Shown here piece by piece: positions 35,722 to 39,502 of a DNA stretch of 64,000 bases. How positions within the stretch are numbered: position 1 is the stretch's first letter; the number at the start of each line of letters is the position of its first letter. A program made the position numbers and the translations under genes. Below the pieces are notes generated by a model, which was given only the letters and a program-made list of their open reading frames with translations, made no database searches and was not told the origin of the DNA. The DNA is from Phnomibacter ginsenosidimutans (GTDB taxonomy: Bacteria > Bacteroidota > Bacteroidia > Chitinophagales > Chitinophagaceae), in assembly GCF_009740285.1 (NCBI RefSeq), contig NZ_CP046566.1:1542501-1606500 (forward strand), read 5' to 3'.

Positions 35722-36372
35722 ATGAAACAACTTATCGCCTATTTCTTGCTGCTTATTTCCATTCCGGCGGCAGCCCAAACCTTTGTGGATACCCAAGCAA
35801 AAAAGCGGAATGTATCGCCCTTTCATGCCATAGAAGCTAGTTCAGGCATTGAAGTAGTGATTGCTCAGGGGCAGGAAATCGGATTGGCCGTTAGTGCCAG
35901 CTCAGATGAAGTAGATAAGCGGGTTATCACCCAGGTTGTAGATGGAGTTTTGAAGATTGGTGTCGAAAACGATTGGAAATTTTGGAAAATGACCAAGACC
36001 TGGCGCATTAAAGTGTATGTGAGCTACACATCGCTTACCGATCTTAAAGCCAGTAGCGGTGCCAGCATAAAAGGTCAGTTTGAAGGCAACAGTCTTACTT
36101 GTAAGCAAAATAGTGGTGGTACAATTGCCATTTCAGGCCATGCCGAAAAGTTGGAAATTGAAGCGAATAGTGGTGGAATTTTCAAAGGGTATGATTTTAC
36201 AGCTAATTTTCTGCAAGCCAACGTGAATAGTGGTGGCGGGGCACAGGTAACTGTAAAAAAGGAAATAACCGCTAAGGCCAATAGTGGTGGTTTTGTGACC
36301 TATAAAGGCGATGCCATTATTCGCAGTATTGATGTAAACAGCGGGGGCTCTGTAAGAAAATCTACCAAGTAG
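35722..36372 (+). CDS. DUF2807 (head GIN domain) exported protein
   Basis: Exported protein of 216 residues: signal peptide to about residue 18 (IPAAAQ), then a DUF2807 beta-solenoid-like domain starting VSPFHAIEASSGIEVVI. The core is marked by regularly spaced NSGG tetrads (KQNSGG, EANSGG, NVNSGG, KANSGG, DVNSGG) about 17-22 residues apart, consistent with coils of a right-handed beta-helix. It was earlier annotated as putative auto-transporter adhesin; the function is unproven. It is followed by its own terminator at 36393. Confidence 0.88.
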   Translation: MKQLIAYFLLLISIPAAAQTFVDTQAKKRNVSPFHAIEASSGIEVVIAQGQEIGLAVSASSDEVDKRVITQVVDGVLKIGVENDWKFWKMTKTWRIKVYVSYTSLTDLKASSGASIKGQFEGNSLTCKQNSGGTIAISGHAEKLEIEANSGGIFKGYDFTANFLQANVNSGGGAQVTVKKEITAKANSGGFVTYKGDAIIRSIDVNSGGSVRKSTK

Positions 36373-36392
36373 AACAGAAAATTTGTCAATGG

Positions 36393-36420
36393 AAACCGTT
36401 TCGTAAGAGGCGGTTTTTTT
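36393..36420 (+). terminator. Intrinsic terminator after DUF2807
   Basis: Stem AAACCGTTTC / GAGGCGGTTT (including two T-G pairs) with the tetraloop GTAA and a T tract to 36420. Confidence 0.82.
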
Positions 36421-36445
36421 ATGCCGGAACATGAGGTATACCCTT

Positions 36446-36506
36446 AAAAAGAATGAGCCCCCCAGTAGAGACTGGAGGACTCTTCAAAACCCTAAACCCT
36501 TAAACT
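36446..36506 (-). ncRNA. Putative small RNA, copy 1 of a tandem family
   Basis: Minus-strand unit. The inferred 5' end is the A at 36506, preceded by a -7 box TATCTTTA (36511-36518). The conserved 5' segment AGTTTAAGGGTTTAGGGT is followed by the 6-nt spacer TTTGAA, a 12-position stem with loop CTCT (36455-36482) and a TTTTT tract (36446-36450). Two stem positions pair only as G-U in minus-strand RNA and would be C/A mismatches on the plus strand, which fixes the strand. No ORF lies downstream: the next gene converges. The CRP-like site of copies 2 and 3 is missing. Confidence 0.55.
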
Positions 36507-36510
36507 GATA

Positions 36511-36518
36511 TAAAGATA
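36511..36518 (-). promoter_or_regulatory. Bacteroidota-type -7 box of sRNA copy 1
   Basis: TATCTTTA on the minus strand, close to the TAnnTTTG consensus, 4 nt before the inferred start. A weak -33-like TTTC lies about 20 nt upstream (GTTTCAAC). Confidence 0.45.
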
Positions 36519-36689
36519 GGGGGAATGTGAATAAGTTGAAACACTTTGAAAAAAAACTTTTCAAAACATCTATCGATGGTTTTATTTCTTTGAATGAATT
36601 GTAGCCAAACTGTTGAAATATTGACGGTTTTTAGACAAAACTATTAGAAATAGGTTCTTGTTTAGCCATTAAAATTTCGTGGATATTAT

Positions 36690-36748
36690 AAAAACGAACC
36701 CCCTCGGTGGAGACCGAGGGGGTTATTAATACCCTAAACCCTTAAACT
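36690..36748 (-). ncRNA. Putative small RNA, copy 2 of a tandem family
   Basis: The same architecture as copy 1, 242 bases upstream of it on the minus strand. Inferred start A at 36748; conserved AGTTTAAGGGTTTAGGGT; spacer ATTAAT; a perfect 12-bp stem (AACCCCCTCGGT and its complement) with loop CTCC at 36697-36724; then CGTTTTTATAA. Stem sequence differs from copies 1 and 3 while pairing is kept. A CRP-like palindrome is centred about 41.5 nt before the inferred start and no -33 element is seen, which suggests activator-dependent transcription. Confidence 0.62.
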
Positions 36749-36752
36749 GATG

Positions 36753-36760
36753 TAAAACTA
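36753..36760 (-). promoter_or_regulatory. Bacteroidota-type -7 box of sRNA copy 2
   Basis: TAGTTTTA on the minus strand, at the same distance (4 nt) from the conserved segment as in copies 1 and 3. No TTTG is seen near -33. Confidence 0.45.
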
Positions 36761-36780
36761 CGTCAGGCATTCAGGAGTGG

Positions 36781-36798
36781 TTATGACGTAAGTCACAA
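36781..36798 (-). promoter_or_regulatory. CRP/FNR-like operator upstream of sRNA copy 2
   Basis: The minus strand reads TTGTGACTTACGTCATAA, an interrupted palindrome that fits the CRP pattern TGTGA-N6-TCACA with one mismatch. It lies 23 bases from the -7 box as measured from its TGAC core, which places its centre near -41.5, the class II activator position. Confidence 0.5.
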
Positions 36799-36927
36799 TT
36801 GTGGTGGTATTTGATGCGACTTTTCAACAATTTGTCGTAATAGTTCTACGAATCAACACATTCTTGTAGTGTAGTAATCAATTAGAGCCAATGGCTCAAG
36901 GGGCAGAATTGAAATTGGGTAAGTGAC

Positions 36928-36987
36928 AAAAAAGCGAAACCCCCGGTGAAGACCGGGGGAATCATTAATACCCTAAACCCTTAAACT
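36928..36987 (-). ncRNA. Putative small RNA, copy 3 of a tandem family
   Basis: First unit in transcription order, 239 bases upstream of copy 2. Inferred start A at 36987; conserved AGTTTAAGGGTTTAGGGT; spacer ATTAAT; a stem of 8 perfect pairs (CCCCCGGT/ACCGGGGG) extended by two mismatches and two more pairs, loop CTTC, at 36936-36963; then TTTCGCTTTTTT. It has a -7 box CATCTTTG and a CRP-like palindrome at exactly the same spacing as in copy 2. The predicted transcript is about 60 nt. Confidence 0.62.
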
Positions 36988-36991
36988 GATA

Positions 36992-36999
36992 CAAAGATG
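36992..36999 (-). promoter_or_regulatory. Bacteroidota-type -7 box of sRNA copy 3
   Basis: CATCTTTG on the minus strand, one mismatch from TAnnTTTG, 4 nt before the inferred start. No -33 element is evident. Confidence 0.45.
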
Positions 37000-37019
37000 C
37001 TACGGGTTTTGGCACTATG

Positions 37020-37037
37020 CAGTGAGTTGCGTCACCA
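37020..37037 (-). promoter_or_regulatory. CRP/FNR-like operator upstream of sRNA copy 3
   Basis: The minus strand reads TGGTGACGCAACTCACTG, with GGTGA-N6-TCACT half-sites. The 23-base gap between its TGAC core and the -7 box equals that in copy 2 to the base although the gap sequence differs. Confidence 0.48.
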
Positions 37038-37202
37038 TTTTTGGAGCAGTATAAACGTCGTGATGACAATTAAATGACTGATTTTGTAGGCGATATACTA
37101 CAAGTGAATCGCTGATGTAGAATATGTACTGCTATTAGTGAAACGGAGATTAGGTTAAATGCTTGATTTTAAACTGCTAAGCCTTCTGCAAACGGTTGCA
37201 GG

Positions 37203-37899
37203 CTAAATCGCACTGTTTGCGGTAGTGTTTTGAAGTGCATGTCTGCTTTTGCGGTAAGGATACCAATGCATTTGCTGAATATCCCAGAGTTCTATGGCAT
37301 CAATACCGGCTTTCAGCTTGTAATCAAACTTGGGATTTTGCATGGCTATGTAGCCGGGATAGAAATATTCTTTGCCTTGTTGTTTTGCCAGCCGTACACT
37401 CTCCAGGTACAAATACAAACCGGGGCTGTATTTACGATAGTTGGGATGAAAGAAAGTGAGGATACCTGCATTTGATAAAACGCCTTCATCAAAATAACTA
37501 ACTCCAATTAATTCGTTCCCATCATACAAAGTCCACGTTTTTGTAGGAAAAAAGTTGGCTGACTGCTCGATCCAGCAAATAGGATTTGACGTTATTGCTT
37601 ACTTCAAAATCGATGGATTGCCTGTATAACCGGTAGAGGTATTCAATTTCATCATCCAGCCGAAAAGGCGATACACGAAGGTTAAACCGGGCATTGCGTT
37701 TTTGCAATTGCAGATGTGTTCCAGAGGGCTGCCATTTGCTTAAGACTATGCGGGCCCACAAAGCTTCATACACTTCTGTTTCCGATAAATAGATATAAGG
37801 TGTTGTAAATACAGACTGCGACATTCTGTACCAACCCAGTTCGAGTAGTCCGTCCATAAAGGCGGGATCAAGCGGTTGTTGTAGCGGAATGTAATACAT
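37203..37899 (-). CDS. Arginyl-tRNA-protein transferase (ATE/Bpt)-like protein, frame broken by one base
   Basis: Two frames join into one protein of about 231 residues. The C-terminal part resembles the GNAT-like ATE_C domain: LIGVSYFDEG, SPGLYLYLESVRLAKQQGK, EYFYPGYIA and KFDYKLKAG. Members transfer Arg or Leu from tRNA to protein N-termini (N-degron pathway); activity here is unproven and the N-terminal Cys cluster of true ATE is not seen. The join is an A run at 37548-37553: five instead of six gives SQLFPTKTWTLYDGNE. ATG 37899 lies 15 bases after the MATE gene's 3' end, so the two are probably cotranscribed. Confidence 0.75.
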
Positions 37900-37914: not shown

Positions 37915-39245
37915 TCAGACAACTTTCTTTGAAACCATTCGCAAAAATCGGCGGTTCAAAAATAGCGCAGCCATGCTTAAGCCCACTACAAAACCCCACC
38001 AAATACCACTGGCTCCCCAACCTTGTTCAAATGCGAGCCAATAGCCAACCGGAATGCCGATGACCCAATAGGCTACTGCCACCAGTATAGTTGGCACTTT
38101 TACATCCTTAATACCCCGGCAAAGGCCGGCACCAATAGCTTGCAGGCTATCACTTACCTGAAATAAAGCCGCTACCAATAACAGTTGCGCCGACAGCGTT
38201 ACAACCGCCGCTTCTGAGTTGAATAAATAGGGTAATTGATAGCGGAACAAGATGAACAACAAACCCGTGACCACGCCATAAATTAAACCGCCAGCGATGG
38301 TGCTTACGCCAATGCGTTTGAGCCTTGGTACATCATTACTGCCATACGCATGTGCCGTGCGGATGCTGCTGCCCATGCTAAGGCCCAGCACTGCCATAAA
38401 CGTTGTGCTGGCACAGTTCAGTGCAATTTGGTGCGCCGCTTGTGCCGTGGCACCAAGCCAACCAACCATGATGCCGCTCACACTAAAGGCACCTGCTTCC
38501 ATTACCAACTGCAGGCCACTGGGAATGCCAATGTGTAGCAGTTCAGCAATACGTTTGCGTTGTATTTTCCAAGCTTCTTTTTTACAGCAACATATTTGGT
38601 AAATGCCTTGCTGTTGAAAATGATGTACAACATCACAATAGCCTCCACTACACGGGTAAGCAGTGTGCCTACCCCGGCACCCAACAGTTCCATGCGGGGC
38701 AGGCCGAGGTTGCCAAAAATGAACAGCCAGTTGAGCAGCGCATTCAAGGGCAAACTCATGAATGATAGAAACATGCCGATGCGGGTCATTTCCAGCGCAT
38801 CGCTAAATTGTTTCATGCTCAGGAAAAAAGTCATGGGCACCAGGCTCCAAATCATCACCTTGAAATAGGGTGCTGCTAGGGCGACTACTTCGGGTTCCTG
38901 GCCCATGTGCCAAAGCAGTGGCGAGGCAATGGTACAAATACTGGCTATGATGATGCTGACCAACGTGCTGAGAAAAACGCCGTTGTATAAAAAGCTGCTG
39001 GCTGCCACTGTATCGTTTTGCCCACGTGCAATACTGACCAACGCTGTGATGGCAATGGTCATGCCGATGCATATAACCTGCGGAATACCGATGGCATTGA
39101 TAACAAAGCTGCTGGCGGCCAACTGCTTGTAACTGATAGAACCCACCATGGCACTATCGATGAGGCCGAGACCTACCTGTGCCACATTGCTTACAATGAG
39201 CGGAATGGATAACCGTAGCGTTTGTTTGAATTCCCGAACCAACAT
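37915..39245 (-). CDS. MATE-family multidrug/Na+ efflux transporter, frame broken by one base
   Basis: Inner-membrane antiporter of the MATE (NorM) family, about 445 residues with 12 hydrophobic segments when joined. The N-terminal frame has LSIPLIVSNVAQVGLGLIDSAMVG, the family signature in helix 1. The C-terminal frame has VMEAGAFSVSGIMVGWLG, the same fold in the second half. They join at a T run (plus strand 38578-38583): one more T gives AVKKEAWKIQRKRIAELLHIGIP. ATG 39245 is chosen; a longer frame to 39275 adds nothing family-like. The natural substrate is unknown. Confidence 0.9.
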
Positions 39246-39502
39246 GACACAATTGAAAATGACCGAAGCCCGCAAAGATGGGGATAATTATGGACCACAG
39301 ACTACCGACCACCGACAACAGCTGGTAGTAATTTTTTTTGAAAAAATGATGAAAAAGCAACCAGTGGCTACAAATATTCGGACTTTCTATCTTTCTGTCA
39401 TTTCAACTCTCCCAATCTCTCCAAAGGAGAGGAGACAAAGAGTATGGCGGTTGACTTTGGTCGTCTGTCTACAGACTCCGGACTTTTCCGACTTCCCGAC
39501 TA

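Follow-up and report, generated by a model that had tools for sequence, protein, structure and literature searches.

The gene-free interval between a DUF2807 gene and an ATE-like gene in the window (the whole 64,000-nucleotide stretch of DNA that we analyzed, from the chromosome of Phnomibacter ginsenosidimutans) raises the question of what three similar units on its minus strand encode and what the block of sequence that they share might do. The initial annotation had read them as stand-alone sRNAs of ~60 nt, each with a -7 box, an 18-nt block, and a stem of identical layout. The block, AGTTTAAGGGTTTAGGGT, does occur without mismatch three times on the minus strand (Table 1), and a search allowing up to 3 mismatches returned 3 matches in 64 kb against 0.02 expected, a count reached in 0 of 100 shuffles of the window. 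A repeat search recovered one family of three 71-nt copies, spaced 242 and 239 nt apart and with 70% and 79% identity to the reference copy. The units share a common order of block, 6-nt spacer, 12-position arms, 4-nt loop, and T tract, with 4 nt between the -7-like box and the block in all three. The -7 box and the uniform stem held up in units 2 and 3, which carry TAnnTTTA and have stems with 12 of 12 positions paired and, on folding, 12 pairs including G-U, respectively, but only in part for unit 1, where the box reads CATCTTTG and was missed by the motif scan and where folding leaves two U-U mismatches in the stem. No ATG-opened frame is present in any of the three units, and stops fall in or directly behind the block in all frames.

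Table 1. Positions of the predicted sRNA units, their upstream boxes, and the neighboring gene within the window
Feature	Position	Strand	Details
Unit 1, predicted sRNA	36928..36991	-	Block 36970-36987; arms 36952-36963 and 36936-36947; T tract 36928-36933
-7-like box of unit 1, CATCTTTG	36992..36999	-	From sequence; first base off TAnnTTTG
Unit 2, predicted sRNA	36690..36752	-	Block 36731-36748; arms 36713-36724 and 36697-36708; T tract 36690-36694
-7-like box of unit 2, TAGTTTTA	36753..36760	-	From sequence
Unit 3, predicted sRNA	36446..36510	-	Block 36489-36506; arms 36471-36482 and 36455-36466; T tract 36446-36450
-7-like box of unit 3, TATCTTTA	36511..36518	-	From sequence
DUF2807 gene	35722..36372	+	PF10988, E=3.1e-28; converges on the array

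The units precede no gene, as had been claimed, the next gene downstream (DUF2807) being convergent, and the sequences between them are indeed unrelated within the array. These spacers also fail to align with two relatives (L038 and L040) that have a two-unit array at the same locus, adjoining a DUF2807 orthologue identified by tblastn; alignment is limited to unit-sized pieces and the flank on the DUF2807 side, with unit 1 and its -7 region 96% identical, and L038 also keeps the gene on the other side. Unit 2 is missing from the two-unit arrays of genomes G002 and G006. The ATE-like and MATE-like genes of the window (37203-37899 and 37915-39275) each consist of two overlapping frames, both parts of which form one frame in L038; these splits are probably long-read assembly indels or real frameshifts.

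A search of the whole genome for the block, with up to 3 mismatches allowed, gave 8 places: the three units, a fourth sRNA at 926644 (L004), and four others. A match with up to 1 mismatch is present in 16 of 196 relatives' genomes (own included), which include 9 of the 10 from the genus, and reversing the pattern as a control produced 7 hits in total across the 196 genomes. Covariance models were built from 14 copies (R1, which retrieved unit 1, one of its own seeds) and from 45 copies (R2), with L013 and L015 excluded from alignment A2 as misaligned and L014, L054, and L060 withheld from the search behind alignment A4. Covariation reached 0.614 in the 14-copy MAFFT alignment (0.202 in shuffles) and 0.870 (0.200 in shuffles) in the 45-copy alignment, which was fitted to the model and has pair counts biased that way; in both cases 0 of 500 shuffles attained the observed value. 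The block is nearly constant among the R1 and R2 copies, in part because they were found through it, and the hairpin has been remade through paired changes.

The covariance-model search proposed at the outset, run with R2, placed the family, hereafter type A, in 82 of 294 Chitinophagaceae genomes at E≤1e-6, some of these being weak matches to types B or D described below, and in 61 of 294 with a listed match of at least 50 bits. The figure of 237 of 294 genomes from R1 at E≤0.01 was rejected as a family count, since plain terminators and other families are among the weak hits. Six type A copies were identified in the window's genome (R2, E≤1e-6), making the family multicopy there as FopS is in its hosts; two of the six are a divergent tandem pair (2706315 and 2706601), and copies of this kind stand three in a row in each of G006 and G002. 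One retained copy, L010 in G064, has a one-mismatch block coinciding with the leader of an opposite-strand gene that resembles a REP-associated transposase by eye and whose ATG lies 4 nt past the site; the site is a target, or else an sRNA that overlaps a gene start.

Elsewhere in the window's genome, hits to the hairpin half of the unit included several hairpins that resemble terminators, have a similar loop, and lack the block (by eye). Since the hairpin occurs block-free as a terminator, the RNA can be regarded as the block plus a clade-typical terminator, with the block as the specific part. Genome G116 contains dispersed repeats with AGTTTAAGGGTTTAAGGT beside GC-rich imperfect palindromes (L011, L024, L030, L033, and L034). 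Such block-like repeats, together with the likeness of the hairpin to plain terminators, speak for dispersed repeat DNA or terminators yielding no regulatory RNA, but this is the least credible of the readings we considered, given the paired hairpin changes beside a constant block, the promoter motifs at set distances, the retention of units across species while spacers fail to align, and a reversed pattern that produced only its few chance hits.

The genomic context and upstream sequences of the copies bear on whether the units are genes in their own right. Among 56 type A copies that have sufficient flank and contain a TTTT run, some of them mutually orthologous, 55 are intergenic, i.e., overlap no frame of at least 100 aa; the block is therefore not confined to coding genes elsewhere, an outcome that had been named as contrary to the sRNA interpretation. 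The downstream gene converges in 44 of the 55 intergenic copies and does not in 11. The -7 consensus is TAnnTTTG, and the sigma54 consensus is TGGCAYR-N4-TTGC, located ~26 nt before the 5' end. A strict sigma54-like motif was present in 23 of 62 nonidentical type A copies (0.3 in shuffles; maximum, 1), and TAnnTTT[GA] was present in 26 (8.1 in shuffles; maximum, 12). Measured from TTTAAGGG, the sigma54-like motif lies at -28 in the genus form and mostly at -30 to -33 in the family form, in which the T run before AAGGG is longer. When position limits were applied to the 62 copies, 23 were sigma54-like, 25 were -7-like, 6 had both, and 20 had neither; the window units have no sigma54-like motif, and the genome's fourth copy (926644; L004/L190) has one. 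The distances of both motif classes would place the 5' end at the block, in keeping with the earlier placement of the block at the RNA 5' end.

These promoter motifs immediately before the block, along with the convergent downstream gene in most copies, make it highly unlikely that the units are leaders, attenuators, or 3'-UTR pieces of adjacent genes, even though the array does lie downstream of a same-strand gene (37203-37899). Covarying hairpins and intergenic copies that mostly face a converging gene argue instead for the stand-alone ~60-nt sRNAs originally predicted. As read from sequence, the family combines a conserved block with a covarying hairpin, has its promoter motifs at set distances, lies between genes, and includes many paralogues.

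Searches at gathering score against Rfam gave no match in the window and only tRNAs among 16 related loci. A Streptococcus sRNA match at L084 (41.5 bits against a cut-off of 48; E=0.0011) runs over upstream DNA and was therefore rejected as chance. In a phylum-wide draw, 8 of 395 genomes had a match at E≤1e-5, of which 5 are themselves Chitinophagaceae, including three (G030, G043, and G038) of type D; of the three hits outside Chitinophagaceae, L101 and L103 have no block, and in L102 a stretch bears a loose similarity to it. In Marinobacter, 11 records (e.g., L035, L041, L043, L044, and L047) have the exact 19-mer CAGTTTAAGGGTTTAGGGT within conserved surroundings, and no terminator-like hairpin was seen by eye in the five contexts inspected; these matches are probably unrelated. 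We conclude that type A is a real family of predicted sRNAs, a variant of the FopS kind that is absent from Rfam 15 and from the literature searched (open-access papers only).

Weaker R1 hits revealed other blocks in the same layout. The type B block, GGTTTAGGGTTTAGGGGTTAAA, was found in 43 of 294 genomes with one copy each, and the type C block, CATAGGATAAGGTTTAATGGTT, was found in 101 of 294 with a maximum of 9 copies, the window's genome having a single one-mismatch occurrence; reversed controls for both blocks gave no hit among the matches listed. The 61 type A and 43 type B genomes do not overlap (0 shared, with 8.9 expected disregarding phylogeny), and type C also occurs in 40 of the 43 B genomes and 3 of the 61 A genomes (by eye). 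Type D (L099, L100, and L104) resembles FopS, with scores to the FopS model of 31.4 bits (L276) and 37.5 bits (L104) that are under the cut-off of 56; L100 gave no match to this model up to E=5. The FopS consensus in Rfam starts with GUGUUUUUCAUgGUAUUAGAUUUAAGGUUAA and has a terminator at its end. Because UUUUUCAU is antisense to AUGAAAAA, the FopS, C, and D seeds read like the antisense of a leader together with its start codon, a part that is missing from type A.

Some of these blocks are also present on viral contigs. Exact blocks were found on 12 IMG/VR contigs (A on 2, B on 2, and C on 8), with hairpins visible by eye behind them, and on 4 of the 12 (L229, L230, L234, and L236; types B and C) the block has a tRNA gene as a neighbor at ~130 nt or less. 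Proteins of four contigs were compared with PHROGs. The type A contig L228 is clearly a prophage, with hits for 6 of 10 proteins tested to baseplate, tail, tail-fibre, and integrase families; L227 had 1 hit among 5, an integrase, L231 had 0 of 2, and L236 had 1 of 3, which is not phage specific. The array region (36373-37202) had no blastn match in GenBank phages and plasmids. A phage copy of FopS has been reported (PMC11697453), and the prophage copy found here suggests that phages use the same seed. We tentatively propose, with some reserve, that Bacteroidota may possess a superfamily of minimal sRNAs, each a 5' seed plus a terminator, of which FopS is one branch and in which types A to D stand in for one another or occur together depending on the clade, with C-poor seeds antisense to start-codon leaders, different sigma factors, and prophage-borne members.

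What the type A block might pair with was examined through near-complements. With up to 3 mismatches allowed, a 16-nt complement of the block is found at 30 places in the window's genome, 5 of these being sRNAs; among the other 25, three abut an ATG (offset 0 to 1) and two more lie 12 to 14 nt off, and the ATG-abutting place at 88891 is also within a longer possible frame. The reversed control gave 38 places, and among the 30 examined, three coincided with or preceded an ATG that is internal to a longer frame and two were 17 to 19 nt from an ATG with no longer frame around it. The candidate sites abutting an ATG are near-complements at 692831, 693394, and 2184241, none of them at a susC gene. 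Site 693394 precedes a gene for an exported-looking protein of 166 aa and 692831 precedes the next gene, of at least 500 aa, neither product having a Pfam hit; the 692831 site is identical in G002 and G006, the sole others with the 166-aa gene among the 10 genus genomes searched. The leader of the 166-aa gene (L224 to L226) has kept, in three species, a long hairpin that looks perfect, with ACCCTA in the loop; it lies where the sequence is poor in G and repeats AACCC/TTAAAC words.

Duplex energies at 692831, 693394, and 2184241 (-22.8, -20.9, and -21.0 kcal/mol) are below those of all 338 sampled start regions, although these three sites were preselected for complementarity. The 693394 site is weaker in the G002 orthologue (-16.3), with 8 of the 338 sampled starts as good or better. 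Across the 338 sampled genes, seed pairing was not enriched at start regions by duplex energy or by ungapped match, and a generic anti-leader role was thus left unsupported; large genes in the sample, including putative outer-membrane receptors (by eye), showed no standout pairing. Candidate sites are few and lie in G-poor, repeat-like leaders. Given the absent general enrichment and the preselected sites, start-codon pairing by the type A block is therefore our best inference and not a result.

The absent enrichment also speaks for another reading, in which the units are sRNAs whose block is a protein-binding site, either a sponge for an RRM protein or a GGGUUUAGGG tract that dimerizes as a G-quadruplex. 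Two RRM_1 matches over the cut-off are encoded in the window's genome, two GGG runs are present in nearly all copies, and RbpB binds single-stranded parts of FopS (PMC11697453). We nonetheless regard this alternative as unlikely, as one G run is altered in some copies (AAAGG, in the second copies of L082 and L088), near-complements are located at start codons, and FopS, of the same layout, has been shown experimentally to repress at start codons through pairing, mainly on susC mRNAs (PMC11697453).

On balance, the units are probably separate sRNA genes of a multicopy Chitinophagaceae family whose block acts as an antisense seed that blocks initiation. Each gene would yield an RNA of ~60 nt whose 5' block (UUUAAGGGUUUAGGG with its edges) is single stranded and free of C and leads into an intrinsic terminator of the ordinary kind. 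The block would pair with leaders immediately upstream of start codons in a few mRNAs and block initiation in a FopS-like manner, with an RRM protein perhaps tuning the pairing. The paralogues are seemingly read from different promoters, either sigma54-like or of the -7 type found in the window, so that one seed could be raised under several conditions. Post-transcriptional control is little charted in Bacteroidota beyond gut genera, and for this family a model is now available along with copy numbers, classes of promoter, and candidate targets. If the proposed superfamily is real, it would constitute a start-codon-antisense network common to the phylum; a link from FopS to other Bacteroidota branches is suggested, and the question arises why the seed of a host's sRNAs should be present on its prophage.

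Several known systems invite comparison. The Qrr sRNAs of Vibrio are multicopy, as type A is, and their sigma54-driven expression and pairing with mRNA leaders would have counterparts in the sigma54-like copies and the proposed seed of type A, but they are longer, Hfq dependent, and from another phylum. GibS of Bacteroides thetaiotaomicron, likened here by its description, has the R1 seed common to FopS and represses at translation initiation regions, but unlike type A it is a single sRNA with two seeds (PMC11697453). FopS (RF04319) is from Bacteroidaceae rather than Chitinophagaceae, and type A differs from it in being without the UUUUUCAUG part, in its block, and in its additional sigma54-like promoters; the FopS model, with a gathering score of 56 bits, gave no match to 36373-37202 up to E=10. 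The two families nevertheless share a core, UUUAAGG-UU-A, taken from the Rfam consensus, and FopS is like type A in its length of ~65 to 70 nt, its several paralogues with independent promoters, and its conserved single-stranded 5' seed followed by a terminator (PMC11697453).
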